DNA from: Bryobacterales bacterium
Lineage (GTDB): Bacteria > Acidobacteriota > Terriglobia > Bryobacterales > Bryobacteraceae
Direction of reading: 5' to 3'
Length of the DNA: 55,303 bases
NCBI GenBank assembly: GCA_003166875.1
Contig: PMUN01000359.1
Coordinates: forward strand, 1,974 to 57,276
Position 1 is the first letter of the stretch; the number at the start of each line of letters is the position of its first letter. Shown one piece after another: positions 6,333 through 50,556 of this stretch. The notes beneath the pieces were generated by a model that was given only the letters and a program-made list of their open reading frames with translations, was not told the DNA's origin and made no database searches. Both the position numbers and the translations under genes were made by a program.

Positions 6333-7724
6333 TTACGGCGCCAGCCGCTCCACGATCCACCGCCCGCTAGCCTTCCGCGAATATCGCAACCGGTCGTGTA
6401 GCCGATTCGCGCGCCCCTGCCAGAACTCAATCGTATCCGGCCGCAGCCGGTACCCTCCCCATCCCGGCGGCGCCGGAATGTCCTTTCCGGCGTAGCGTGA
6501 CTCCAGCTTTTCGATTCTCCGCTCCAAAACGTCGCGGCCGGGGATCACCGAACTCTGCCAGGATGCCCACGCGCTCAACTGCGCTCCACGCGGACGGGTG
6601 CGAAAGTATCGCTCGGTTTCCGCGTGCGAAGTCTTCCCCACGTCGCCCGTCACACGGACCTGGCGCTCCAGTTCCGGCCAGTAAAAGACCAGCGAAGCGC
6701 GAGGATTGGCAGCCAACTCGCGCGCCTTCAGGCTTCGATAATTGGTATAGAAAACGAAGCCGCGGGAATCGGCCTCTCTGACAATCACCATTCGCGCCGA
6801 AGGCTGCCCTTCAGACGAAACGGTGGCCAGCGCTACTGCACCCGGTTCCGCGATACCGGCCACGCTTGCCAGAGCATACCATTCTTCAAATTGTTTGATC
6901 GGATTGGCGTCGGCGCTAGGTTCGTCCAGTACAATAGTCTTGGCGCGTTGCCTGTGAGGAACAATAATGTACCCCAGCCTCGAGTTCCCGAGAACCTCGT
7001 TACGCTCGCGTCCCCAGTACCACCAATGCGCGGCGATATACGCGGCTAGCAGCGCATCCAGCTGATCTTCGACAGCCTTCAACGCGCGGCCCGCGTGCGG
7101 AATCTCGGGCAGCTCGGTTAGCTCGAGTTTTGGAACCAGCAGGGGAAGCCGCTCCAAGATCAGCGCGCGCAACCGGTTCAACTCGATTACACGATCCGCC
7201 AGTCTCCCTTTTTTGTATTTAACGATGCGGTCCAGCAGGAAAAGTTGAACCGATGCAGCGTGGGGATGGACTTCGATCTGGAACCGCCCGCTGCCCTTCG
7301 GCGCCCATTCATCGCCGTGGCCGAAACCCATTTTGCCCAGCGCTGAGGAAAACCCGGTTGTCCGCTTCCAAAACGTGCGCGCCCGGCTAGCCGGATAGGC
7401 ACCCGCGTGATACTTACCGTAAAGAGAATGCGCAAGACGGTCCGCGATCCGCATGCCTGACACATTCGGAATCACGATGGGCGCGTCGATGCCGATTCCA
7501 GTATCGGCTGTCGCCTCAGCCGTCACCCAACGCAGCACATCCCCCGGAAGCCTGAGGCGACCGAGTGCAGCAAGGTGCAGCGTTCCGCCGGCCCAATCAA
7601 GAGCCGCAACGCCGCTGGGCTGGTTCTCCCACCCGAAGTCAATCCCGAGGAAGCGCAGACACCTTATTCTAGACTGAGCCGCGACCGGAAGGAAGCGCCA
7701 CCACGACAGCGGCAGGTTTGCCAT
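6333..7724 (-). CDS. DUF429 (predicted RNase H-like) domain fused to a pyridoxamine 5'-phosphate oxidase domain
   Basis: N-term FLGIDFGWENQPSGVAALDW, GIGIDAPIV, IEVHPHAASVQLFLLDRIVKYKKGR; C-term EPGAVALATVSSEGQPSARMVIVRE, GFVFYTNYRSLKARELAANPRASLVFYWPELERQVRVTG, WGGYRLRPDTIEFWQGRANRLHDR. Start uncertain because the 5' end lies in a repeat. Confidence 0.82.
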   Translation of the reverse strand: MANLPLSWWRFLPVAAQSRIRCLRFLGIDFGWENQPSGVAALDWAGGTLHLAALGRLRLPGDVLRWVTAEATADTGIGIDAPIVIPNVSGMRIADRLAHSLYGKYHAGAYPASRARTFWKRTTGFSSALGKMGFGHGDEWAPKGSGRFQIEVHPHAASVQLFLLDRIVKYKKGRLADRVIELNRLRALILERLPLLVPKLELTELPEIPHAGRALKAVEDQLDALLAAYIAAHWWYWGRERNEVLGNSRLGYIIVPHRQRAKTIVLDEPSADANPIKQFEEWYALASVAGIAEPGAVALATVSSEGQPSARMVIVREADSRGFVFYTNYRSLKARELAANPRASLVFYWPELERQVRVTGDVGKTSHAETERYFRTRPRGAQLSAWASWQSSVIPGRDVLERRIEKLESRYAGKDIPAPPGWGGYRLRPDTIEFWQGRANRLHDRLRYSRKASGRWIVERLAP

Positions 7725-7765
7725 CCATCACGCTCCCTGCCGGTCGCGGCTCGGTTTCGTCTAGA
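7668..7765. repeat. Imperfect palindromic element, copy 1 (77-bp core 7676-7752 with TCTAGAC/GTCTAGA outer arms)
   Basis: GAGCCGCGACCGG...GGTCGCGGCTC; matches 16612-16688 in length and terminal sequence. Confidence 0.88.
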
Positions 7766-8693: not shown

Positions 8694-8820
8694 GCGGATG
8701 GACTATGCAAGAGCATGGCCACGTGCACAAAGCGCTGAATTTGTTCTTGGAGAGAGGACGCTAAAGGCCGCGAGGCAGGAATTATTTTCCCTGCCTAACG
8801 GTAAGTAACGGTGAGAGCCG

Positions 8821-8899
8821 GGAGGCAGGAAGCAGGCGGCAGGCTGCAGGCAAACCGAAATGCTCCGCTCTGCAGCCTGCCGCCTGCGTCCCGCCTCCC
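8821..8899. repeat. Heptad-periodic inverted repeat next to a stop codon
   Basis: gggaggcaggaagcaggcggcaggctgcaggc...ctgcagcctgccgcctgcgtcccgcctccc; both arms have period 7; TGA of the next gene at 8901-8903. Confidence 0.85.
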
Positions 8900-8900
8900 G

Positions 8901-9719
8901 TCACTTCGCTTTTCGAATATAAATATTCCCGTTGAAAGTAGTGAGTTGAATCTCCGGTCCGCCCCCATTGATTAACCCATATGTCGCCTTATCGAACTGC
9001 ACACGATACTTGCCGAGCTTACCGTGCCCGGAGCCGGAGTCCTCTACAATCGGCCTGCGCGACGACGCGTCCACCTTGATGTCGAAATCGCTATAGACCT
9101 CGCCATTGTCGCTCTTCAACTTCACCTTCGCCTTCAAGTCGGCCGGCATCGTGACGTCGATATCGCCATTGAGCGAGCTGAACGACATGGGCTTGTCCGC
9201 GGTCACCTTGTCCAGCGTCACCAGCACGCGGTCGTTCAAGGCATGCACGATGGCCGAACCCGAAATATGCGTGGCCGTAGCCTTTCCATTGGTCACGTCA
9301 ATCTCGACGTCTCCCACAATATGGTCCACCGAGATTTCGCCACCGTTCACGTCGTGCAGCTTCAAAGACGTGTCGAACGGCACTTGAATATTGATTTCGA
9401 CGTTCTCGTTGAGCGACCGCGTGCCCACCGTCACGACATTGTCGGATTCCTCCACCGAGAGGCCGCTGCCGCCAATATCGATCCGGTGCATCCCGTCCGA
9501 TCGCTCGGCAGGGCGCCTGTGCCTGCCGCCCTCGCCACGCGCTTCCACGATGGCTTCCTTGCCGTTATAGCCTTTCACCGTGATGCTGCCGTTCAACACC
9601 GACGCTTTCAGCATCTTCGGCCGCGATGGATCGCTGAAGGGAACGTTCACGCGATCCGGTGGTTCCTGCGAAAACGCCGCGCCGGCCGCGAATATAAAGA
9701 GAAGTGCTAGCTGTTTCAT
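8901..9719 (-). CDS. DUF4097-family secreted protein
   Basis: MKQLALLFIFAAGAAFSQ signal peptide; beta-helical repeats LNGSITVKGYNG, VNGGEISVDHIVGDVEIDVTNGKATATHISG, SLNGDIDVTMP. Confidence 0.85.
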   Translation of the reverse strand: MKQLALLFIFAAGAAFSQEPPDRVNVPFSDPSRPKMLKASVLNGSITVKGYNGKEAIVEARGEGGRHRRPAERSDGMHRIDIGGSGLSVEESDNVVTVGTRSLNENVEINIQVPFDTSLKLHDVNGGEISVDHIVGDVEIDVTNGKATATHISGSAIVHALNDRVLVTLDKVTADKPMSFSSLNGDIDVTMPADLKAKVKLKSDNGEVYSDFDIKVDASSRRPIVEDSGSGHGKLGKYRVQFDKATYGLINGGGPEIQLTTFNGNIYIRKAK

Positions 9720-16589: not shown

Positions 16590-16611
16590 AGCTTTCTCGA
16601 TGGCCCTTTCC

Positions 16612-16688
16612 GAGCCGCGACCGGCAGGAAGCGCTACCAACACTGCACGGGTTTGCTATCTGTCCACGCTCCGTTCCCGTCGCGGCTC
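16612..16688. repeat. Imperfect palindromic element, copy 2 (77 bp)
   Basis: GAGCCGCGACCGGCAGGAAGCGCTACCA...GGTTTGC...CACGCTCC...GTCGCGGCTC; same length and ends as 7676-7752. Confidence 0.88.
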
Positions 16689-16746
16689 AGTTTTATATAT
16701 TCGTGCCGCACTCCCTCCCCTGTGGTAATGGACCTCAGTGGGGGAA

Positions 16747-16810
16747 TCCTTCTGCTTTCTGCATTCTGCATTCTGCTTTCTGCTGCCTGCCACCTGCCGC
16801 CTGGCTCCTA
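16747..16810. repeat. Heptad-periodic array (TTCTGCN to CCTGCCN) ending in a stop codon
   Basis: ttctgct ttctgca ttctgca ttctgct ttctgct gcctgcc acctgcc gcctggc tcctact: 9 units with CTG in constant phase; TAG of the minus-strand gene at 16808-16810. Confidence 0.85.
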
Positions 16811-18139
16811 CTGCTTAATCACTGTCCCATCCCTCCGCCGGATCTCCCCCCAGCCGCCGTTCAGCCGCTTCCGCTCGCTTTCCTCGAAGCTTCCGAAAGG
16901 ATACTTGGCCGCGGCCTTCTCATCTACCTCGATGCCCCAGCCTGCCGCGTCGTTAGGATACCAATAGCCGTTTTTCATCACCGGACAACCCTGGAAAACT
17001 TCCTGCGTGCGCTCGTGAAACGCCGAATATTCCTGGATCCCAAAATTGTGGCAGGCCACGTCCAGCGTGATGTTGCACATTGATCCGATCGGCGAAAGAT
17101 CGCCGGGACCATGCCATGCCGTCCGCACGTTGAACGCCTCGCCCAGGGCCGCAACCTTGCGCGCGGGCGTCAGCCCTCCCACCATGGACGGATGAATGCG
17201 GATGAAATCGATCAGCCGTTCGGAAATCAGCGGCGTCCATTCCAACGGATGCGTGAACAGCTCCCCCATCGCCAGTTGCGTGGCGCACTGCTTGCGAATC
17301 AGCCGGAAATAATCGATGTCTTCGGGCGCAAGCACATCCTCCAGGAAGAATAACCGGAACTTCTCCACATCCTTGGCGAATCGCACAGCTTGTATCGGAT
17401 GCAATCGCTCATGAACATCGTGCAGCAGCTCGATCTCCTCGCCCAGCTCCGTCCGGCTGGCTTCAAAAAGCTGCAATGCCCGCCGCATGTAGGCTGCCGG
17501 CTCAAACACCGGACCATCATGCAGCGCCGCAACGGCAGCGTTCCCACGGCTCGCGCCATATCCTGCCATTCCTGGAACGCCCACCTGCACGCGCACATGC
17601 CGGAAGCCCTGCTCGATAATTCGCCGCGCGTTCGCGATGGTCTCCGGAATCTCTGCGCCGGCAGCGTGCGTATAACAATCGGCCGCTTCGCGGCATTTCC
17701 CACCGAGCAACTCATACACCGGCATACCAGCTTGCCGCCCCTTGATGTCCCACAGCGCCATGTCGACGCCCGCGATGGCGTTGTTCAACACCGGGCCATT
17801 GCGCCAATAGGAGCTGTCGTAGCAGGCATGCCAGATATCGTCAATCCGATCGGTAGCTCGCCCCAGCAGAAACGGCTTCAAATATTTCTCAACCGCTGGA
17901 ACAACCAAATCCGCGCGCTGCGTAAACGTGGCGCATCCGTAGCCGTACAATCCATCTTGGTCCGTAGTAATCTTCACCACCACCAGCCGCAGTCCTTGCG
18001 GCGCAGTCGCGATAACGCTAATGTCTTTGATGCGAGGAACAGCCAACCCACGCGTAGCGCGCTCCACCTTAGCCTGCGCCGCCAATTCCCGCATTGCGAG
18101 AAAGCCGCCAGCCGCCTTCAGCAGATCGCGGCGCTTCAT
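16808..18139 (-). CDS. Mandelate racemase/enolase superfamily protein (RspA/mannonate dehydratase-like) with Tat-like leader
   Basis: MKRRDLLKAAGGFLAM leader; NAIAGVDMALWDIKGRQAGMPVYELLGGK; LFFLEDVLAPEDIDYF; WHGPGDLSPIG. Confidence 0.87.
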   Translation of the reverse strand: MKRRDLLKAAGGFLAMRELAAQAKVERATRGLAVPRIKDISVIATAPQGLRLVVVKITTDQDGLYGYGCATFTQRADLVVPAVEKYLKPFLLGRATDRIDDIWHACYDSSYWRNGPVLNNAIAGVDMALWDIKGRQAGMPVYELLGGKCREAADCYTHAAGAEIPETIANARRIIEQGFRHVRVQVGVPGMAGYGASRGNAAVAALHDGPVFEPAAYMRRALQLFEASRTELGEEIELLHDVHERLHPIQAVRFAKDVEKFRLFFLEDVLAPEDIDYFRLIRKQCATQLAMGELFTHPLEWTPLISERLIDFIRIHPSMVGGLTPARKVAALGEAFNVRTAWHGPGDLSPIGSMCNITLDVACHNFGIQEYSAFHERTQEVFQGCPVMKNGYWYPNDAAGWGIEVDEKAAAKYPFGSFEESERKRLNGGWGEIRRRDGTVIKQ

Positions 18140-20372: not shown

Positions 20373-20381
20373 GCGAATTCT

Positions 20382-20455
20382 GGCCGCGAATGAACGCAAA
20401 TAAACGCAAATAACCTCGTGCCCGATTCGCGTTCATTCGCGTTCATTTGCGGCCT
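20382..20455. repeat. Inverted repeat built of GTTCATTCGC/GTTCATTTGC decamers
   Basis: ggccgcgaatgaacgcaaataaacgcaaataa...ttcgcgttcattcgcgttcatttgcggcc; overlaps the TAG stop (20454-20456). Confidence 0.9.
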
Positions 20456-24943: not shown

Positions 24944-25435
24944 TCACCCAATGTGACATAGATTACACGCGATCTTCAGATCCTCAGGCGTCGCGCACTC
25001 CAACGTGTAAGTATGCCCGTCCATGCTCCAGGTAAACACCCTGGCACTGGACCCCGCGTGCCGCCCATCCACCCTAAGCCGTCCGTCACGACCACCCACG
25101 CTATAAGCGATCTCGACGGACCCCTTCGCGAAGTTCGCACCCATCAACTGGACCCCGGCGGGCCGCGCCCGCAACGGAACATCAATCCCCGCCTGAGCCT
25201 TCACCCAGCCCCGAATCTCCCCGGCATCAGCCGACCTAAATCCCCGATGCCCCACAAACAACCAAATTGCTAATAGAAGCACCGTGGCGCAGGCACTCAT
25301 GCCTGCCGCGGTCACACTCGTGTGAACGCTTTTCTTCCTAACTCGCGGATTCCGAACCCGCTCCCAAAGCTCCTCCGGCGCCGCAACCCGGTCCAACTGG
25401 TGCGCCAGCACCGGCTCAAACCATTCTCTATGCAT
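24944..25435 (-). CDS. Putative anti-sigma/membrane protein paired with an ECF sigma factor
   Basis: Next to the ECF sigma gene 25428..26000 with 8-nt overlap; one TM; contains an in-frame palindromic repeat. Confidence 0.65.
   Translation of the reverse strand: MHREWFEPVLAHQLDRVAAPEELWERVRNPRVRKKSVHTSVTAAGMSACATVLLLAIWLFVGHRGFRSADAGEIRGWVKAQAGIDVPLRARPAGVQLMGANFAKGSVEIAYSVGGRDGRLRVDGRHAGSSARVFTWSMDGHTYTLECATPEDLKIACNLCHIG
25284..25329. repeat. Tandem double-hairpin element A (46 bp), in frame in a CDS
   Basis: GTGGC-GCAGGCA-CTCA-TGCCTGC-CGCGG-TCACA-CTCG-TGTGA-ACGC. Confidence 0.88.
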
Positions 25436-27330: not shown

Positions 27331-27358
27331 TCGACCAAAAGCATGTGGGGATTAGCCC

Positions 27359-27403
27359 GTAGCGCACGCTCTCAGCGTGCCGCGTTCACACTCATGGGAA
27401 CGC
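27359..27403. repeat. Tandem double-hairpin element B (45 bp), intergenic
   Basis: GTAGC-GCACGCT-CTC-AGCGTGC-CGC-GTTCACA-CTCA-TGGGAAC-GC; aligns with elements A and C. Confidence 0.88.
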
Positions 27404-27441
27404 CTTGATCATTTCCCCAACATGCTAAGCTCTCAATAATC

Positions 27442-36560: not shown

Positions 36561-36593
36561 TTTATTTGCGTTCATTCGCGTTCATTCGCGGCC
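36561..36593. repeat. GTTCATTCGC decamer repeat over the 3' end of tsaE
   Basis: tttatttgcgttcattcgcgttcattcgcggcc; same unit as 20382-20455; encodes the PRMNANERK* tail of TsaE. Confidence 0.85.
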
Positions 36594-37005
36594 AAATAAC
36601 AATCTCCCTCTCCCTATCACCGACCGACCGCAACGTGATCTCCACCCGCTCCTCAGGCATCAGCTCCGGAAACCGCTCGCCCCACTCCACCAACACCACT
36701 GCCTCGCGATCGAAGATTTCATCCAGTCCGATCGAGGCCACCTGCTCCGCTCGATCCAGCCGATACAGATCGACATGATAAACACGCGGACCATATTCAT
36801 GAATCAGCGTAAAAGTCGGGCTCGAAACCTCGTCCGGATGCGCGGCCCCCAGCCCCTTCACGATGCCCTTCGCCAAAGTAGTCTTGCCAGCCCCGAGATT
36901 ACCAATCAACAACACCGCAACTTTGGCCGGCAATTCCGCCGCCAGGCTTTCGCCCAGCGCAACGGTCTCCTCTTCAGATTGCGTTCGAATGGTCCGCGAC
37001 TTCAC
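36562..37005 (-). CDS. tsaE: tRNA threonylcarbamoyladenosine biosynthesis ATPase TsaE
   Basis: LLIGNLGAGKTTLAKGIVKGLGA; VSSPTFTLIHEYGPRVYHVDLYRLDR; VLVEWGERFPELMP; GTG start proposed. Confidence 0.93.
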   Translation of the reverse strand: MKSRTIRTQSEEETVALGESLAAELPAKVAVLLIGNLGAGKTTLAKGIVKGLGAAHPDEVSSPTFTLIHEYGPRVYHVDLYRLDRAEQVASIGLDEIFDREAVVLVEWGERFPELMPEERVEITLRSVGDREREIVIWPRMNANERK

Positions 37006-41852: not shown

Positions 41853-42761
41853 ATGTGCGGAATCGTTGGCTATCTCGATAAAACGCGTAGTAATGCCGGC
41901 GCCCTGGGGCATACTGTGTTGGGCATGCTCAACGCACTCGGCTGCCGCGGTCCGGATTCCGCCGGGGTCGCATTGTACGGCGATACACGGGATGGGCAAC
42001 TGGTTGTGCGTGTGGCGCTTGCGAGCAGGAACGATTTCGACGCTTCTGCCGCTAAGATCCTCACGGCGGCCGGAAAGTTCGGCGTTGTCAGCGATTCCAG
42101 CATCACGGATTGTTACCTGCGCTTCCAAATCGGGGCAGAGGCATGCGTTCAGCCGTTGATCGATGCCGTAGAATCGGCCGAGCCAGGAACTGAAGTAGTT
42201 AGCTTGGGGCGGCATCTCGAAATCGTCAAGCAAGTGGGATCGCCGGAGAATCTCGAGGCCACCTATCATGTCTCCGGATTCCGAGGCACTCACGGCCTGG
42301 GCCACACACGGCTCTCCACGGAATCGCGCGTGGATCTGAGTCATTCGCAACCCTTCTGGGGGCATGGCTATCCCGACCTGGCCGTCGCTCACAATGGCCA
42401 TATCACCAACTATCATCAGCTTCGCCGCCGCTACGAGCAGCGCGGGATTCGTTTTTATACCGAGAACGATTCCGAGATTATCAGCATCTATCTGGCAGGC
42501 CAACTACGAAACGGACATACTCTTCAACAAGCCTTTGAAAGCATGCATCGGGACCTGGACGGTTCGTTTAGCTGCGTGGTAGCCACCGATTCCGAGATCG
42601 GATTCGTGAAAGATCAGTTCGCATTGAAGCCTCTGCTATTCACGGAAACCAGTGATTTCGTCGCCATCGCGACCGAAGAGGTTGCTATACGCAGCGCCGT
42701 GCCCGGCAACTACGCCGTGCGGGAAGCTCAGGCCAAGGAGTCGCGCATATGGCGGAAGTAA
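41853..42761 (+). CDS. mgsA: Class II glutamine amidotransferase subunit (GlxB/MgsA, N-methylglutamate synthase type)
   Basis: MCGIVGYLDKTRSNAGALGHTVLGMLNALGCRGPDSAGVA (Cys2 nucleophile); HGLGHTRLSTESRVDLSHSQPF; DLAVAHNGHITNYHQLR. Confidence 0.88.
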   Translation: MCGIVGYLDKTRSNAGALGHTVLGMLNALGCRGPDSAGVALYGDTRDGQLVVRVALASRNDFDASAAKILTAAGKFGVVSDSSITDCYLRFQIGAEACVQPLIDAVESAEPGTEVVSLGRHLEIVKQVGSPENLEATYHVSGFRGTHGLGHTRLSTESRVDLSHSQPFWGHGYPDLAVAHNGHITNYHQLRRRYEQRGIRFYTENDSEIISIYLAGQLRNGHTLQQAFESMHRDLDGSFSCVVATDSEIGFVKDQFALKPLLFTETSDFVAIATEEVAIRSAVPGNYAVREAQAKESRIWRK

Positions 42762-43459
42762 CTTGCGACGGGCGGAGCATCCGCGAAATCAACGTCGCCA
42801 TCAAATCTTACATTCGCGGCGGGGACAACGAGATCACAGTTACCAATCCCGGCGGACGGCATAATCTGGGCGTCGCCATTCTGGAACCTGCGCACGTAAC
42901 CATCCAAGGCAGCGCCGGATATTATTGCGGCGCTTTGGCCGACGGCTCCACGGTGGAAGTGACAGGAAGCGCTGGTTGGGGCCTGGCCGAATCCATGTTA
43001 AATGGAACGGCGATCGTGCATGGGAGCGCTGGAAATGGAGCGGGCGCGGCCATTCGAGGGGGCGCGGTGATCGTCTATGGCGATGCGGCGGCTCGCGCGG
43101 GCGTCTCCATGAAAGGTGGCCTGGTGTTGATCGGCGGAGACTGTGGCTACATGGCGGGTTTTATGGGGCAAAAGGGAGCGCTGATCGTTTGTGGCGACGC
43201 TGGAGATGCCTTCGCCGATTCAATGTACGCTACGGTCTGCTACGTGGGCGGAAAAATCGCCGGCCTGGGAAATGACACGGTGATCGAAGCATTGAGCTCG
43301 GCGGACGTGGAATTTCTGGATGCCACTTTGGAACGCTACCTGCCCTTCGAAATTCGCAAAACCAAACCTTCCGGAAAAAACTTCAAGAAGATTGTTTCCG
43401 GCCGCAGGCTGTGGAACTTCAACCAGCGCGACCGGAAAATCTGGCAGGAGGCTCTGTAG
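42749..43459 (+). CDS. mgsB: GXGXG-domain subunit (GlxC/MgsB)
   Basis: HNLGVAIL, GSAGYYCGALADGSTVEVTGSAGWGLAESMLNGTAIVHGSAGNGAGAAIRGGAVIVYGDAAARAGVSMKGG beta-helix. Confidence 0.88.
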   Translation: MAEVTCDGRSIREINVAIKSYIRGGDNEITVTNPGGRHNLGVAILEPAHVTIQGSAGYYCGALADGSTVEVTGSAGWGLAESMLNGTAIVHGSAGNGAGAAIRGGAVIVYGDAAARAGVSMKGGLVLIGGDCGYMAGFMGQKGALIVCGDAGDAFADSMYATVCYVGGKIAGLGNDTVIEALSSADVEFLDATLERYLPFEIRKTKPSGKNFKKIVSGRRLWNFNQRDRKIWQEAL

Positions 43460-43460
43460 A

Positions 43461-44762
43461 GTGCTCGAAACCAGCGGAACATTTCAACCCGGCGTCATCG
43501 AGGAAATACAACGGAAAGCAGCGACGGGCCTTTACGCGATTCGCGGCTATGGCACGTTGCGCGAGCGCCGGTGGGCCACCTTCGACGACCTGACGTTTTT
43601 GCCCTGCTCGCTGACTCGCATTCCGCTCGAAGGTTATCGCGAGAAGTGCTCCACAAAGACAGTTCTCGGGACGCGGCACGCAAAAAAGCCGATCGAACTC
43701 GACATCCCCATCATGATCACGGGCATGAGCTGGGGAGCGCTTTCGCTCAACGCGAAAACAGCGCTGGCAAAGGGAGCCGCCCTGGCTGGTTCATCCAACA
43801 CTACCGGCGACGGCGGGATGCTTCGCGCTGAGCGTGACGCGAGCAGGTGCCTGATCTATGAGGTTCTGCCCTCGCGTTACGGCATAAATATTCACGATAT
43901 GCGTGAAGCCGATGGTATCGAGTTGACCATCGGACAAGGCGCGAAGCCTGGAACAGGTGGCCTGCTGCTGGGCTCTAAGGTTTCCGATGTAATCGCCCAC
44001 CAGCGCGATTTGCCCATCGGCGTGGACCAGCGCAGTCCGGCGCGGCACCCGGATTTTCTCGGACCCGATGACATGGTGATCAAAGTGGAAGAACTTCGCG
44101 AAGCCACCGATGGCCAGGTACCGATATTCGTCAAAATGGGCGCAAGCCGCGTGTTCGACGATGTAAAACTCGCGGCAAAAGCCGGCGCCGATGTGATCGT
44201 GGTGGACGGCATGGAAGGCGGAACGGCCGCTTCACCGGCCATTCTGCAGGAACACACCGGCCTACCGACGCTCGCGGCGGTATGTGAAGCGCGCCGCGCG
44301 CTTGAGGATATTGGCGTCTACGGGGAAGTGCAGTTGATCATCGCGGGCGGGATACGCGACGGAGTGGATGCGGCGAAAGCAATGGCGCTGGGGGCGGACG
44401 CTATATATATCGGTACGGCCGCGCTCATTGCGCTGAACTGCAATCGCGCCATGTATGAGATTGACTATCACGCCATCGGAGCCGCGCCCTACCATTGCCA
44501 CCATTGCCACACGGGCCGCTGTCCAGTGGGAATTACTACACAGAACCCCGAGCTGATGCAGCGCCTGGACATCGACGAGGGGGCGGAGCGCGTTTTGAAC
44601 CTGCTGCGCGCGATGACGCTCGAAATTCAGATGCTGGCCCGCGCTTGCGGAAAAAGCGACGTTCATCACCTGGAACCGGAAGACATGGCGGCGCTCACCG
44701 CGGAAGCTTCCATGATCTGCGGCATCCCGCTGGCCGGTACCAGAAAGGTGTTCGGCAGCTGA
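43461..44762 (+). CDS. mgsC: FMN-binding glutamate synthase-family subunit (GlxD/MgsC)
   Basis: IMITGMSWGALSLNAKTALAKGAALAGSSNTTGDGGM; GQGAKPGTGGLL; DVIVVDGMEGGTAASP; IIAGGIRDGVDAAKAMALGADAIYIGTAALIAL; CHHCHTGRCPVGI; GTG start. Confidence 0.9.
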   Translation: MLETSGTFQPGVIEEIQRKAATGLYAIRGYGTLRERRWATFDDLTFLPCSLTRIPLEGYREKCSTKTVLGTRHAKKPIELDIPIMITGMSWGALSLNAKTALAKGAALAGSSNTTGDGGMLRAERDASRCLIYEVLPSRYGINIHDMREADGIELTIGQGAKPGTGGLLLGSKVSDVIAHQRDLPIGVDQRSPARHPDFLGPDDMVIKVEELREATDGQVPIFVKMGASRVFDDVKLAAKAGADVIVVDGMEGGTAASPAILQEHTGLPTLAAVCEARRALEDIGVYGEVQLIIAGGIRDGVDAAKAMALGADAIYIGTAALIALNCNRAMYEIDYHAIGAAPYHCHHCHTGRCPVGITTQNPELMQRLDIDEGAERVLNLLRAMTLEIQMLARACGKSDVHHLEPEDMAALTAEASMICGIPLAGTRKVFGS

Positions 44763-45014
44763 ATGTCGTTCTTGTTGGCGTGCCCGGAATGCGGAGAACG
44801 CAGCGCCTACGAGTTCCGCTTTGGAGGCGAGGTCAAATCACGCCCACAGCCCGGCGATAGCGAAGACGCGTGGTTCCAATACATCTACACGAAGACGAAC
44901 GAGGCCGGCGAGCAGGAGGAATGGTGGTTCCACCGCAACGGCTGCCGCAAATGGTTCCAAGCTCTGAGAGACACCCGAACCAACACTGTGATCGCCACCT
45001 GGTATCCGGAGTAA
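44763..45014 (+). CDS. soxD: Sarcosine oxidase delta-like subunit
   Basis: LLACPECGERSAYEFRFGGEV...EEWWFHRNGCRKWFQALRDTRTN. Confidence 0.9.
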   Translation: MSFLLACPECGERSAYEFRFGGEVKSRPQPGDSEDAWFQYIYTKTNEAGEQEEWWFHRNGCRKWFQALRDTRTNTVIATWYPE

Positions 45015-45020
45015 TCAACA

Positions 45021-47582
45021 GTGGATATCCGCTTTAACGGAAAAGCAATCCCCATCCAGGAAGGCGATACGGTAGCATCGGCGCTTTATCGCGCAGGTCA
45101 GCGGATTTTCACTCGCAGCTTCAAATATCACCGGCCTCGCGGGTTGCTGTGCTGCTCCGGCCACTGTCCGAATTGCCTGATGAACGTGGATGGAATTCCC
45201 AACGTCCGGACCTGCATTACCCCAGCGCGTGGGGGGATGGCGGTGAAACATCAGAACGCGCGGCCCTCTCTGGATTTCGATTATCTGGCCATTGCTCAAC
45301 AATTCGATTGGATGATGCCGGTTGGCTGGTACTACAAAAACTTCACCAATCCCCGCTTGTGGCATTTGGCTGAGTCGCAGATCCGCAAAGTGGCGGGATT
45401 GGGCGATCCTCCTCCGCCGGATGCTCCCGAGGCTGTATACGAACACGCCCACATGCAGGCCGGCGTGGCAGTGATCGGAGGAGGTGAAGCTGGATTGAAC
45501 GCCGCACGCGAGGCAGCTTCCCAAGGGGAACGCGTGGTGGTGGTGGATGATCAACCGCGTACTACGCTGGGCGACTCTAGCTACACTCTTCTTTCCCGTT
45601 CCTACTGCTTCGGACTGTACGAAGGAAATCTGCTCGGCGTACTGCAATCGGAGCCGCATTCGGGTGTCCGAGAGCGTCTGGTCCACATCCGCGCGAAACG
45701 GATCGTAGTTGCAACCGGCGCGTATGAGGCGCCGCTGACGTTCAAGAATAACGATCTGCCCGGCATCATGTTATCCACGGCTGTCTGGCGCTTGATCCAT
45801 CGGCACGGCATTCAGCCGGGAACCAGCGCCGTGATTATCTCGAATGAAACCGGGGATTCAGCCATTGCCGCGGAACTTCGCAATGTGGGGATTGCGGTGG
45901 TTGCGACGGTTCCTCCGAGTGACGTGCTGGAAGCTACCGGCAGCAAGCATGTCACTGGATTGCGTACCAGGCGCGGTAACTTCGCATGCGATTTAGTTGT
46001 AATGTGCGGGCATCGCATCCCGGACGCGGGATTGCTGTCACAAGCCGGCGCCAAATTGGAGTGGAGCGCTGAAGCGGGCGCTTTTGTACCAACTGAGCTT
46101 CCGCCCAACATCACAGCGGTGGGAGACGTAACGCACGCACTCGTGCGTGCCGCATCGACACTCGTGTCGATGCCCAACAAAAGAACATTCGTCTGCTTCT
46201 GCAACGACGTCACTAGCCAAGACATCTGCGACAGCATCGCGGAAGGCTTCGATCACATTGAGCTTCTGAAGCGCTACACGACAACCACCATGGGTCCATG
46301 CCAGGGGCGCATGTGCCAGCTCCAGGCTATCGGCATTTGCGCGCGAGAGACTGGCCGCGAGATTCAAGAAACCGGCGTAACTACATCCCGTCCTCCGAAT
46401 CCCGGTGTCACGTTGGGCGCACTCGGCGGCGCGCGCCACCATCCCATTCGCCGCACGCCCATGCACTACCAGCATGAGGAGTTGGGAGCGGTGTGGATGG
46501 ACATGGGCGATTGGAAACGTCCCCGCTATTACAAGAGCGCTCAGACGGAACGAGAATCCATCCTGCGGGAATATAACGCGGTGCGGCAGGCTGTGGGAGT
46601 AATCGACGTGAGCACGCTGGGCAAGTTGTCGCTCAAGGGTCGCGACACCGGGAAGTTACTGGATAAGGTTTACACCAACCGGTTTTCGGACTTGAAGCCG
46701 GGGCGGGTGCGATATGCGGTGTTGTGTGATGAAGCCGGGATCATTCTGGATGACGGCACTATTTCAAGAAAGGATGAAGATGACTTCTTCATTACCACCA
46801 CTACTGGGAATTTGGAATTCATGGAGCAGTGGCTGGAATGGTGGCTGGCAGGCGCGGGTTGGGACGTTCAGACGAGTAATTTGACGTCGGCATTGGCGGC
46901 CGTGAATCTTGCGGGCCCTAAGGCGCGGGATGTATTGAGCGCTCTTACTAACTGCGGTCTTTCCAACGCTGAATTCCCTTACATGGCCTGTCGCAACGCG
47001 GAAGTAGCGGGCGTTCCCGCGCTTTTGATGCGCATCGGATTTGTCGGCGAAACCGGGTGGGAAATTCATTACCCCGCGGAATCCGGCGAACATCTTTGGA
47101 GCGCTCTGATGGATGCGGGACGGCCTTTCGGGATTTGCCCGTTCGGCGTGGAAGCGCAGCGGCTGCTCCGCTTGGAGAAGCGCCACGTTATCGTTGGCGT
47201 CGACACCGACGCGCTCACCAGTCCATATGAAGCCGGCATGGCGTGGGTGGTGAAGCATGATAAGGACGATTTCATCGGAAAATTCGCTCTCGGCAAGTTG
47301 GCCAGCGCGCCGGCACAGCAGAGTCTGGTGGGATTCACGATGAACGCGAATGAAATTCCCGAGGATGGCGCCGCGATCCTGGTAAATGGCGCGCTGGCTG
47401 GACGCGTTACCAGTGCGCGGTATTCGCCCGCTGTCGAGAAAGCCATCGGACTCGCATGGGTTCCGGCCGGGGCTGCTGCGGAAGGAGCCCAGATCGAGAT
47501 ACGCGTGGCCGGCGCGCCCGTTCGAGCCACCGTCACGCAGCGCGTTTTCTATGATCCGGACGGCGCTCGACTGAGAATGTGA
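45021..47582 (+). CDS. soxA: Sarcosine oxidase/N-methylglutamate dehydrogenase alpha-like subunit
   Basis: FKYHRPRGLLCCSGHCPNCLMNVDG; VAVIGGGEAGLNAAREAA; FVCFCNDVTSQDICDSIAEGFDHIELLKRYTTTTMGPCQGRMCQ; C-terminal GcvT-like region. Confidence 0.92.
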   Translation: MDIRFNGKAIPIQEGDTVASALYRAGQRIFTRSFKYHRPRGLLCCSGHCPNCLMNVDGIPNVRTCITPARGGMAVKHQNARPSLDFDYLAIAQQFDWMMPVGWYYKNFTNPRLWHLAESQIRKVAGLGDPPPPDAPEAVYEHAHMQAGVAVIGGGEAGLNAAREAASQGERVVVVDDQPRTTLGDSSYTLLSRSYCFGLYEGNLLGVLQSEPHSGVRERLVHIRAKRIVVATGAYEAPLTFKNNDLPGIMLSTAVWRLIHRHGIQPGTSAVIISNETGDSAIAAELRNVGIAVVATVPPSDVLEATGSKHVTGLRTRRGNFACDLVVMCGHRIPDAGLLSQAGAKLEWSAEAGAFVPTELPPNITAVGDVTHALVRAASTLVSMPNKRTFVCFCNDVTSQDICDSIAEGFDHIELLKRYTTTTMGPCQGRMCQLQAIGICARETGREIQETGVTTSRPPNPGVTLGALGGARHHPIRRTPMHYQHEELGAVWMDMGDWKRPRYYKSAQTERESILREYNAVRQAVGVIDVSTLGKLSLKGRDTGKLLDKVYTNRFSDLKPGRVRYAVLCDEAGIILDDGTISRKDEDDFFITTTTGNLEFMEQWLEWWLAGAGWDVQTSNLTSALAAVNLAGPKARDVLSALTNCGLSNAEFPYMACRNAEVAGVPALLMRIGFVGETGWEIHYPAESGEHLWSALMDAGRPFGICPFGVEAQRLLRLEKRHVIVGVDTDALTSPYEAGMAWVVKHDKDDFIGKFALGKLASAPAQQSLVGFTMNANEIPEDGAAILVNGALAGRVTSARYSPAVEKAIGLAWVPAGAAAEGAQIEIRVAGAPVRATVTQRVFYDPDGARLRM
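46129..46174. repeat. Tandem double-hairpin element C (46 bp), in frame inside the SoxA-like CDS
   Basis: GTAAC-GCACGCA-CTCG-TGCGTGC-C-GCATCGACA-CTCG-TGTCGATGC; encodes VTHALVRAASTLVSM. Confidence 0.9.
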
Positions 47583-48007
47583 TGAAGCGATCGGCATTAC
47601 ATCGATGGCATGAGAAAGCCGGCGCGACGCTGGCCGAAGAAAACGGCTGGTATGTACCATTTCGTTATTCGAACGCAGAGCAGGAGGCTGGGGCGGTTCG
47701 CGGGAGTGTTGGCATCTGCGACCTGAGCCACATCCACGAACCGCTTTCTCCGTACGCGCGTTTCCTGATTGCGGGACCCAACACACGGGCTGTTTTGAGC
47801 AAACTTACCTCACTCAATCTTGACCTGACCACTGCATACGGCTCCGTGGCACACGTGCGAAGCCTGGTCACGCGCCACGAACTTGGTTTCCTAGTGATGG
47901 TTCCGCGCGACTATGCCGAATCGGTATGGGAATCTCTTCTCGACGCCGGCGAAGAATTCCACATCACAGTATTCGGCCTGGAAGCGTCGAGGAGGCTGGA
48001 AGCTTGA
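47579..48007 (+). CDS. soxG: Sarcosine oxidase gamma-like/GcvT-like subunit
   Basis: 142 aa; AVRGSVGICDLSHIHEPL; 4-nt overlap with both neighbours. Confidence 0.75.
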   Translation: MMKRSALHRWHEKAGATLAEENGWYVPFRYSNAEQEAGAVRGSVGICDLSHIHEPLSPYARFLIAGPNTRAVLSKLTSLNLDLTTAYGSVAHVRSLVTRHELGFLVMVPRDYAESVWESLLDAGEEFHITVFGLEASRRLEA

Positions 48008-49203
48008 CGGAGAGAATGTGGAGGCCGCGTTCACTCCAGTCATCCTATGACGTCGTCATCATCGGAGCTGGGATTCACGGGCTTGCCACTGCTTACTACC
48101 TTGGCAAGCGTCATGGAGTGAAGAAAATCGCGCTGCTCGACAAGGGCTATCTCGGCAGCGGCAACAGCGGCCGCAACACGGCTATCCTGCGATCCAACTA
48201 TCGCACTCCGGAAGGCATTCCCTTCTATGACGCATCGGTGAAGCTTTATGAACAAATGTCTCAAGAGCTGGGATGGAACGTCCTGTTCAGCCAGTGCGGA
48301 CATCTGACGCTGGCGCATACGGATTCCTCTCTCATCGGGCTGCGCGTGCGCGCGGAAAATAATCAGGTGCTCGGCGTGGACAGCAAGCTCATTTTCCCGG
48401 ATGAGATCAAGCGGATGGTGCCTGCGATCGACATCAGCAGCCGCGCGCGGTTCCCGATTATGGCGGCGCTCTATCACCCGCCGGGCGGCGTAATCCGTCA
48501 CGATGCAGTGGTGTGGGGCTATGCCCGCGCCTGCGATCGCATGGACATCGAGATTCATCCCTATACGGAAGTGACCGGCATTCGCGTGGAAAAAGGCCGC
48601 GCGCTCAGCGTCGCAACCACGCGCGGTAATGTCGCCGCTGGGGCGGTGCTCAACGTCACCGCGGGATGGGCGTCCACCATTTCAAAAATGGCCGGCGTTC
48701 CGCTGCCCATCGTGTCCCACCAATTACAAGCCTGCGTTACCGAACCTTTGAAGCCGTTTCTTGATAAAGTCATCGTCTCGGCGACACTGCACGTGTATGT
48801 CAACCAGACCGACAAAGGGGAACTGGTGCTGGGCGCGGAAATCGATCCTTACCAGAGCTACAGTATGCGTTCCACGCTTCCAACGCTCGAACAGATCGCT
48901 GGCCACACGCTGGACCTGTTTCCGCAACTGCACGGCCTTCGCATCCTGCGGCAGTGGGCTGGCGTATGCGATATGACGCCGGATTACGCCCCGATTATTG
49001 GACGCGCGGAAGAGGTGGAAAATTTCTACATGGACGTTGGCTGGGGCACGTACGGATTCAAGGCGGGGCCCATTGCCGGGAAGTGCACGGCGGAACTGAT
49101 CGCCACGGGCAAGACGCCGGGATTGATTCAAGCTTTTTCGCCCGGCCGTTTTCGCGCGGGCCGGTTGGTGGGAGAAAAGGCAGCCGCGGCAGTTTCTTCA
49201 TAA
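48004..49203 (+). CDS. soxB: Sarcosine oxidase/N-methylglutamate dehydrogenase beta-like FAD subunit
   Basis: YDVVIIGAGIHGLATAYYLGKRHGVKKIALLDKGYLGSGNSGRNTAILRSNYRTPEG; TTG start overlapping the previous stop, or ATG at 48016. Confidence 0.92.
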   Translation: MTERMWRPRSLQSSYDVVIIGAGIHGLATAYYLGKRHGVKKIALLDKGYLGSGNSGRNTAILRSNYRTPEGIPFYDASVKLYEQMSQELGWNVLFSQCGHLTLAHTDSSLIGLRVRAENNQVLGVDSKLIFPDEIKRMVPAIDISSRARFPIMAALYHPPGGVIRHDAVVWGYARACDRMDIEIHPYTEVTGIRVEKGRALSVATTRGNVAAGAVLNVTAGWASTISKMAGVPLPIVSHQLQACVTEPLKPFLDKVIVSATLHVYVNQTDKGELVLGAEIDPYQSYSMRSTLPTLEQIAGHTLDLFPQLHGLRILRQWAGVCDMTPDYAPIIGRAEEVENFYMDVGWGTYGFKAGPIAGKCTAELIATGKTPGLIQAFSPGRFRAGRLVGEKAAAAVSS

Positions 49204-49221
49204 CCCGAAAAGAGGACCATC

Positions 49222-50556
49222 ATGAAGATTGATGAAGTCAGAAGGCTGGTGCGAGACAAAGGAATCGAATATTTCTTCTGCTCGTTTGTGGAAATGAGCG
49301 GCGTGCCGAAGGCCAAGCTGGTTCCCGCAACCAACCTGGAAGAAATGGCGTCGGAAGGGGCGGGATTCGCGGGATTTGCGGCGGGCGACCTGGGTCAAGG
49401 GCCGCACGATCCTGACGTGGTCAGCATTCCCGACTTCGAATCGCTTGCGATTCTTCCATGGAGGAAGAATGTCGCTTGGGTGCCTGGCAATCTACACGTG
49501 GACGGAAAACCCTGGAGCTATTGCCCGCGCACGATTTTGACGCGGCAGATTGAGAAGGCGCGCCAGAAGGGTTACATCTTCAACGTCGGCGTTGAGCCGG
49601 AATTCATGTTGCTGAAGAAGAATGCAACGGGAGAATACGAGCCGTGGGATTCGTTGGACACTCTCGGAAAACCCTGCTATGACATGCGCGCGTTGTACCG
49701 CAACCTGGACATGATGACCACTCTGCTGGCCCACATGCAAGAACTCGGCTGGGGCCCGTATGCCAGCGATCACGAGGATGCCAACTGCCAGTTCGAAATC
49801 AATTGGTTGTACTCAGACGCCCTACGCACCGCCGACCGGCATACGTTTTTCAAGTGGATGGTGCGAACGGTGGCCGAAGCCAATGGCTTGTGGGCGACGT
49901 TCATGCCCAAACCTTTTTCTCATCTGACCGGCAATGGCGCACATTTCCACTTGAGCCTGGCCGACGCGGATACGAACAAGAATGTCTTTCTGGACTCCGC
50001 AGATCCGCTAGGGCTTTCCGAAATCGGCCGCTGGTTTATGGGCGGCGTGCTGCATCATGCCGAAGCGCTGACCGCCATCACGGCGCCGTTGGTGAATAGC
50101 TACAAACGGTTGATCCGCGGAGCTCCACGCTCAGGCGCGACGTGGGCGCCTGTCTACGTGACATATGGCCGCGCCAACCGAACGCAGATGATTCGGATTC
50201 CTGGTCCAGGCAGGATTGAGAATCGCACTGTGGATGGCGCGGCTAATCCTTATTTGGCATGCACGGTGCTGCTGGCGGCCGGTATGGATGGAATCGAAAA
50301 CAAAATCGATCCGGGTCCCATGAACCAAGACAATCTCCATGAGATGTCTGAATCCGAGTTGAAAAAGCGAAACATTCGCTTCCTGCCGACGACGCTGCGC
50401 GAAGCTCTGGACAAATTCGCCGGGGACACAGTGCTTCAGGAAGCGCTCGGCATCGACTACGCACAATACTACCGGCGCGTACGATCGGAAGAATGGCGCG
50501 CCTATCACCAAAGCGTGAGCGCCTGGGAAATCGAGAACTATCTGAAACTCTATTGA
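49222..50556 (+). CDS. glnT: Glutamine synthetase-family protein (GlnT / gamma-glutamylmethylamide synthetase type)
   Basis: VGVEPEFMLLKK; DANCQFEINWLYSDALRTADRHTFFKWMVRTVA; FMPKPFSHLTGNGAHFHLSL; GANRTQMIRIPGPGRIENRTVDGAANPYLA-type C-terminal region. Confidence 0.9.
   Translation: MKIDEVRRLVRDKGIEYFFCSFVEMSGVPKAKLVPATNLEEMASEGAGFAGFAAGDLGQGPHDPDVVSIPDFESLAILPWRKNVAWVPGNLHVDGKPWSYCPRTILTRQIEKARQKGYIFNVGVEPEFMLLKKNATGEYEPWDSLDTLGKPCYDMRALYRNLDMMTTLLAHMQELGWGPYASDHEDANCQFEINWLYSDALRTADRHTFFKWMVRTVAEANGLWATFMPKPFSHLTGNGAHFHLSLADADTNKNVFLDSADPLGLSEIGRWFMGGVLHHAEALTAITAPLVNSYKRLIRGAPRSGATWAPVYVTYGRANRTQMIRIPGPGRIENRTVDGAANPYLACTVLLAAGMDGIENKIDPGPMNQDNLHEMSESELKKRNIRFLPTTLREALDKFAGDTVLQEALGIDYAQYYRRVRSEEWRAYHQSVSAWEIENYLKLY

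Follow-up and report, generated by a model that had tools for sequence, protein, structure and literature searches.

A REP element lies in frame within a SoxA/MgdC-like gene of the window (the whole stretch of 55,303 nucleotides that was analyzed) and supplies about 15 of the 16 residues of the linker that joins the FAD domain of the encoded protein to its A3 domain. A REP of a RAYT-linked family was very probably placed into this linker in the common ancestor of the host genome (G000) and its sister species (G002) and has been left there as a passive linker. The features concerned are listed below.

41853..50556, + strand: host operon (Pfam, NCBIfam)
45021..47582, + strand: host gene, SoxA/MgdC-like alpha subunit of 853 aa (Pfam)
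46127..46175, + strand: REP element, element C (CM R2, 72.1 bits, E 2.7e-18 for the window and 4e-16 genome-wide)
46133..46150, + strand: hairpin 1, GCACGCA-CTCG-TGCGTGC, exact match
46152..46173, + strand: hairpin 2, GCATCGACA-CTCG-TGTCGATGC, exact match
25283..25331, + strand: second REP copy in the window (CM), with an orthologous copy in G002
27358..27405, + strand: third REP copy in the window (CM), with an orthologous copy in G002

Element C is 49 nt long and, according to its sequence and the CM, consists of a CGTAAC tag (CGTRGC in the family consensus) followed by hairpin 1 and hairpin 2, both of which have perfect stems (7 and 9 bp, respectively) and CTCG loops. The original prediction had described one palindrome at 46129-46174; an in-frame palindromic element belonging to a repeat family is indeed present, but it comprises two tandem hairpins instead of a single palindrome, and the coordinates, although nearly right, deviate by 1 to 2 nt from those assigned by the CM. 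The window sequence from 46120 to 46178 is TGGGAGACGTAACGCACGCACTCGTGCGTGCCGCATCGACACTCGTGTCGATGCCCAAC. Within ORF 45021..47582, the codons across the element are GAC GTA ACG CAC GCA CTC GTG CGT GCC GCA TCG ACA CTC GTG TCG ATG CCC AAC AAA AGA, which translate in frame to D-VTHALVRAASTLVSM-PNKR. The element-encoded codons V to M (n = 15) correspond to positions 46128-46172, and the full ORF reads through the element as GDV-THALVRAASTLVSM-PNKR; as anticipated, the repeat is positioned exactly between the GDV motif and the FVCFC block. Chance does not account for either hairpin, and the RNA fold z score is -2.97. When hairpin 2 was searched for with up to three mismatches, 100 dinucleotide shuffles of the window gave 0 matches; these shuffles, together with the stem covariation described below, rule out a chance palindrome.

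The element belongs to a family dispersed throughout the host genome (8.0 Mb, 485 contigs). A BLAST search with the region located it at 42 places, the CM search gave at least 150 matches, and the hairpin 1 pattern with at most one mismatch matched 210 times; the sampled loci contained 192 unique copies. The genome-wide copy number is about 200, which exceeds the more than 100 copies per genome expected of a high-copy short palindrome of the REP/REPIN type. The family consensus consists of CGTRGC, hairpin 1 (GCACGCA-CTCN-TGCGTGC), a C, and hairpin 2, which has a variable stem and a CTCN loop. Across 27 aligned copies, 98.4% of all stem cells and 98.9% of those in helix 1 are paired, and 10 of the 16 stem pairs show changes on both sides, a level that none of 500 shuffles reached; for hairpin 2, compensatory double changes affect seven of the nine stem pairs across the family. 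The GTRGC tag, with invariant G2 and T3, is present in 25 of the 27 copies and provides the GTAG/GTGG motif expected 5' of a REP palindrome; in the SoxA copy, the tag reads GTAG in G002 and has drifted to GTAA in G000. Forty-nine closely spaced pairs occur among the 192 unique copies and are mostly inverted (+-), with a spacer of about 19 bp (16 to 24 bp), i.e., they form the inverted doublets characteristic of REPINs. Based on the stem covariation, the 5' GTRG tag, the inverted close pairs, and the presence of copies flanking RAYT genes, the family is a GTRG-tagged, double-hairpin, RAYT-linked REP/REPIN family. Three congeneric genomes (G000, G001, and G002) are rich in these repeats, G003 and G004 have fewer, copies are scattered in G024, G034, and G037, and most members of the taxonomic family and order have none.

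A sampled copy was called intragenic if the frame was open and a coding signal was present on both sides. By this definition the family is mainly extragenic, with only two clearly intragenic sites among the 192 unique copies in a screen that is blind to frame-breaking insertions; the two in-frame sites are located in the SoxA/MgdC-like gene and in locus L211. The coding screen recovered the SoxA copy with 900-nt flanks, whereas 240-nt flanks left it unranked. L225, L045, and L222 had a coding signal on one side only and were left out of the count. Two further observations concern individual copies. The N gaps of the host assembly are often situated inside hairpins (L051, L043, L030, L002, and L264), so REPs and REPINs are likely to be undercounted or damaged in this MAG. 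The G002 ortholog of the copy at 25283-25331 shows compensatory stem changes (GCAGGCA/TGCCTGC versus GCACGCG/CGCGTGC), a pattern suggesting that the hairpin is under selection or has undergone quasi-palindrome correction.

Six Y1_Tnp (PF01797) genes of the host genome score above the cut-off. In G002, three REPs that belong exactly to this family (69 to 74 bits) flank the RAYT gene L301. Its ortholog in the host genome, L051, is 96% identical and has kept the NHVH motif; its flanks contain pieces of family REPs broken by assembly N gaps, none of which was recovered intact. L301 and L051 thus represent a HUH/Y1 gene flanked by REPs of the same family as that found in the SoxA/MgdC-like gene. 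Two other RAYT genes of the host, L049 and L050, are flanked by REPs having the same architecture and different stems, and the Pfam Y1_Tnp assignment was confirmed for L051, L301, and L049. RAYT proteins recognize a GTAG-type guide and the single-stranded REP (PMC8266576). The Y motif of the host's own RAYT has D in place of N (YIERDPVKAGL versus YIERNPVKAGL), which makes current RAYT activity in G000 uncertain. As a separate observation, the RAYT reading frames L301:1345-1989 (-) and L049:1381-2085 (-) extend into their flanking REPs, so that each REP codes for the C-terminal end of the transposase next to it (CVHTSVNAARTSACAT is an example).

The host protein features the domains Fer2_4, an FAD domain, SO_alpha_A3 (starting at residue 387), GCV_T, and GCV_T_C (Pfam), and its nearest solved structures are 2gag_A (E 3.9e-112) and 1vrq_A. 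Since it scored 723 bits against TIGR01372 (soxA), below the cut-off of 1164, we refer to it as SoxA/MgdC-like and not as SoxA. The operon encodes a GATase, a GXGXG protein, a Glu_synthase-like protein, SoxD, the SoxA/MgdC-like subunit, a short SoxG-like protein (142 aa), a SoxB-like protein, and a type III glutamine synthetase, a gene set that resembles the N-methylglutamate (mgs/mgd/gma) pathway, the name being taken from gene content. The fact that the record consists of MAG sequence alone and that the protein is shorter than SoxA of other phyla might point to a decaying pseudogene with neutral insertions. We consider this hardly credible, as the ORF is full-length with 853 codons for amino acids and retains all domains, the protein shares 97% identity with that of G002 over residues 1-587, 46 of the 63 substitutions between the G000 and G002 genes are at third codon positions, and the operon neighbors are intact.

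The same element is found in G002 and in record L105 (Bryobacterales isolate palsa_89), with one difference in 49 nt (GTAGC versus GTAAC), while its flanks differ by about 5% between G000 and G002 (about 95% DNA identity). As the element is common to both genomes, its insertion most likely predates their split. The finding of the same residues in homologues devoid of a palindrome at the DNA level would have spoken against the original prediction; among 94 aligned homologues, none carried the REP residues, the DNA element of the sister species excepted. The element is thus in frame in a conserved gene and missing from the other homologues of that gene. In the tree, G000 and G002 are nested inside a Bryobacterales-Planctomycetota clade of REP-free relatives, whose linkers (from the V of GDV to KR) mostly comprise 15 to 19 aa and are poorly conserved; the REP version comprises 16 aa. 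From sequence comparison, replacement of the linker with an intact frame, as originally proposed, is therefore supported, and it brought no net lengthening. The proposed displacement of the canonical 'GDVAG...A..G..AG..AA' segment is not borne out. Sequences of other phyla (L109-L117 and further ones) contain this segment, but none of the REP-free relatives within the Bryobacterales-Planctomycetota clade has the canonical post-GDV helix; having been lost clade-wide already, it was not displaced by the REP. The site itself is therefore a fast-evolving interdomain linker with poor conservation and not a highly conserved enzyme region.

Alternatively, the linker residues might be ancestral, with the palindromes resulting from codon choice or chance and the likeness to the repeat being coincidental. 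The linkers of close relatives are loosely similar (VAGAWLARAMPLPP versus VAHALVRAASTLV), and the linker is A/L/P-rich. However, the 49-nt element matches about 200 mostly non-coding copies with 72 bits, shuffles gave 0 matches, and the REP peptide shows no residue-level likeness to the linkers of relatives beyond composition, 203 of 300 shuffled versions scoring as high. Ancestral residues are extremely improbable, and the dispersed non-coding family refutes this reading.

We propose that, before G000 and G002 diverged, a RAYT brought a REP or a REPIN into a tolerant interdomain linker of their ancestor. Because frame 1 runs through the element without a stop and specifies an A/L/V/T/S-rich peptide, the gene would have kept its frame. 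Subsequently, either a deletion of the old linker, and also of the second arm in the case of a REPIN, or a one-step template switch at GTAGC microhomology may have left a single REP as a linker of about the original length. Entry as a REPIN followed by loss of one arm and the old linker fits with the view that singlet REPs are immobile remnants of REPINs (PMC3116915) and with comEC, which still carries a full REPIN. One-step replacement, with the sequence of an ectopic REP copied over the old linker through gene conversion or a replication template switch at GTAGC, would need no transposase; it is possible, though less likely. GTAGC is present at the left junction at the same codons in the relatives L102 and L107 (GAA GTA GCC GGT), no net length was gained, and a single REP is present, not a REPIN; yet the 5-nt microhomology may be due to chance, as the V-[TA]-G to which GTA GCC contributes is common, no clear homology is seen at the right junction, and comEC exhibits a plain insertion of a whole REPIN compared with an empty site. 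As the nearest REP-free SoxA homologues are only about 65% identical, the data fit both insertion followed by deletion and one-step replacement.

The second intragenic site is as follows.

L211:310-2448, on contig C134 of the host genome: comEC with in-frame REPIN (TIGR00361, Pfam)

The gene was identified as comEC with a TIGR00361 score of 251 bits (cut-off, 190). A whole REPIN forms residues 378-415 of the protein, between the Competence (64-376) and Lactamase_B (451-531) domains defined by Pfam. The protein alignment shows no such insertion for G001, G003, G004, and most other relatives, and at the DNA level the comEC gene of G001 shows the empty site. The comEC gene of G002 (L311; compare L312-L314) contains an unrelated in-frame REPIN at the same linker, GTGGGGCGGACCCCCAGGTCCGC..., which resembles the repeats flanking the RAYT gene L047. 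In the simplest reading, REPINs entered the comEC linker twice.

AlphaFold was used to model the SoxA/MgdC-like protein (overall mean pLDDT, 85.8; pTM, 0.58). Residues 372-389 are predicted to be coil, with a mean pLDDT of 51 for residues 371-380 and the lowest confidence at residues 374-380. The surface loop for which a structural model had been suggested as a check is therefore represented in the model by a low-confidence coil. The peptide most likely acts as a passive, unstructured interdomain linker, and any role of the hairpins within the gene is putative at most. If the mRNA hairpins had instead been exapted, slowing ribosomes for co-translational folding or regulating the operon, they would be under selection, and the perfect hairpins at a domain boundary, the identity of the stems in G000 and G002 next to flanks differing by about 5%, and the occurrence of hairpins at the comEC domain boundary in two species are in line with this. 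Nevertheless, exaptation appears very unlikely: every other homologue has a hairpin-free linker, one substitution in 49 nt compared with about 2.4 expected is not significant, and linkers are simply the places in which insertions persist. A broader idea, based on comEC (one REPIN family for another) and soxA/mgdC (a REP for a linker), holds that REPINs are recurrent linker donors in Bryobacterales, swapped by length- and frame-preserving replacement, with hairpins possibly aiding co-translational folding; we regard it as improbable.

Apart from the REP family, the window contains other repeats. A dispersed inverted repeat unrelated to the REP is located at 8814-8905, 1-33, and 16759-16819 (GAGGCAGGAAGCAGGCGGCAGG and relatives), and two further families with inverted copies are found at 20381-20454 and 36562-36594 (TTTGCGTTCATTCGCGTTCATTCGCGGCC) and at 7673-7755 and 16610-16691 (GAGCCGCGACCGGCAGGAAGCG). 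At about 26260, inside a GC-rich region, the G002 sequence is longer than the window by about 105 bp.

The insertion represents a clean case in which selfish hairpin DNA has come to code for the linker of an enzyme, and for which the likely mobilizing transposase family has been identified, a sister species carries the same insertion, and relatives show the state without it. It extends in-frame REPs to Acidobacteriota, and the comEC locus allows asking whether REPs are re-targeted to domain linkers or merely tolerated there. In-frame REPs as a phenomenon are already known, and the SoxA/MgdC case is a clear new example; in the REP literature covered, we found no earlier description of the double-hairpin unit, the linker replacement, or the twice-hit comEC linker. 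About 600 REP-like structures have been reported for Solibacter usitatus (PMC6006769).

With GTAG-type REP/REPIN elements and their RAYTs (Bertels and Rainey 2011, PMC3116915; Di Nocera et al. 2013, PMC3733652; PMC8266576), the family shares the GT[AG]G 5' tag, hundreds of copies outside genes, inverted doublets with short spacers, and copies flanking Y1/HUH RAYT genes. It differs in its host, Bryobacterales (Acidobacteriota), and in its unit of two tandem hairpins with CTCN loops spanning 49 nt, whereas GTAG-type REPs usually have one palindrome of 20 to 40 bp. REPs and their dimers in frame within known genes were described by Di Nocera et al. (2013, PMC3733652), who had already proposed linkers and loops as REP-tolerant sites and reported that recB of X. 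campestris and that of X. oryzae carry different REPs at nearly the same site. This recB double hit parallels that of comEC; compared with those intragenic GTAG/CGTC REPs, the targets here are a SoxA/MgdC-like gene and comEC, and the SoxA REP replaces a whole linker with no net gain. According to PMC3733652, the RPEs of Rickettsia are also in-frame palindromic repeats in functional proteins (Ogata 2002; Claverie and Ogata 2003), and RPE-4 and RPE-6 are assigned there to CGTC elements without a dedicated transposase. The element described here shares with RPEs the in-frame palindrome within a functional protein; it has an identified RAYT, is intragenic at only two sampled sites, and, by description, is set apart by its host, its stems, and its GTRG tag. 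The host protein itself has the same domain order as the alpha subunit of heterotetrameric sarcosine oxidase (2GAG, 1VRQ) and MgdC, from which it differs in its length of 853 aa and in the short linker that replaces the canonical post-GDV helix.
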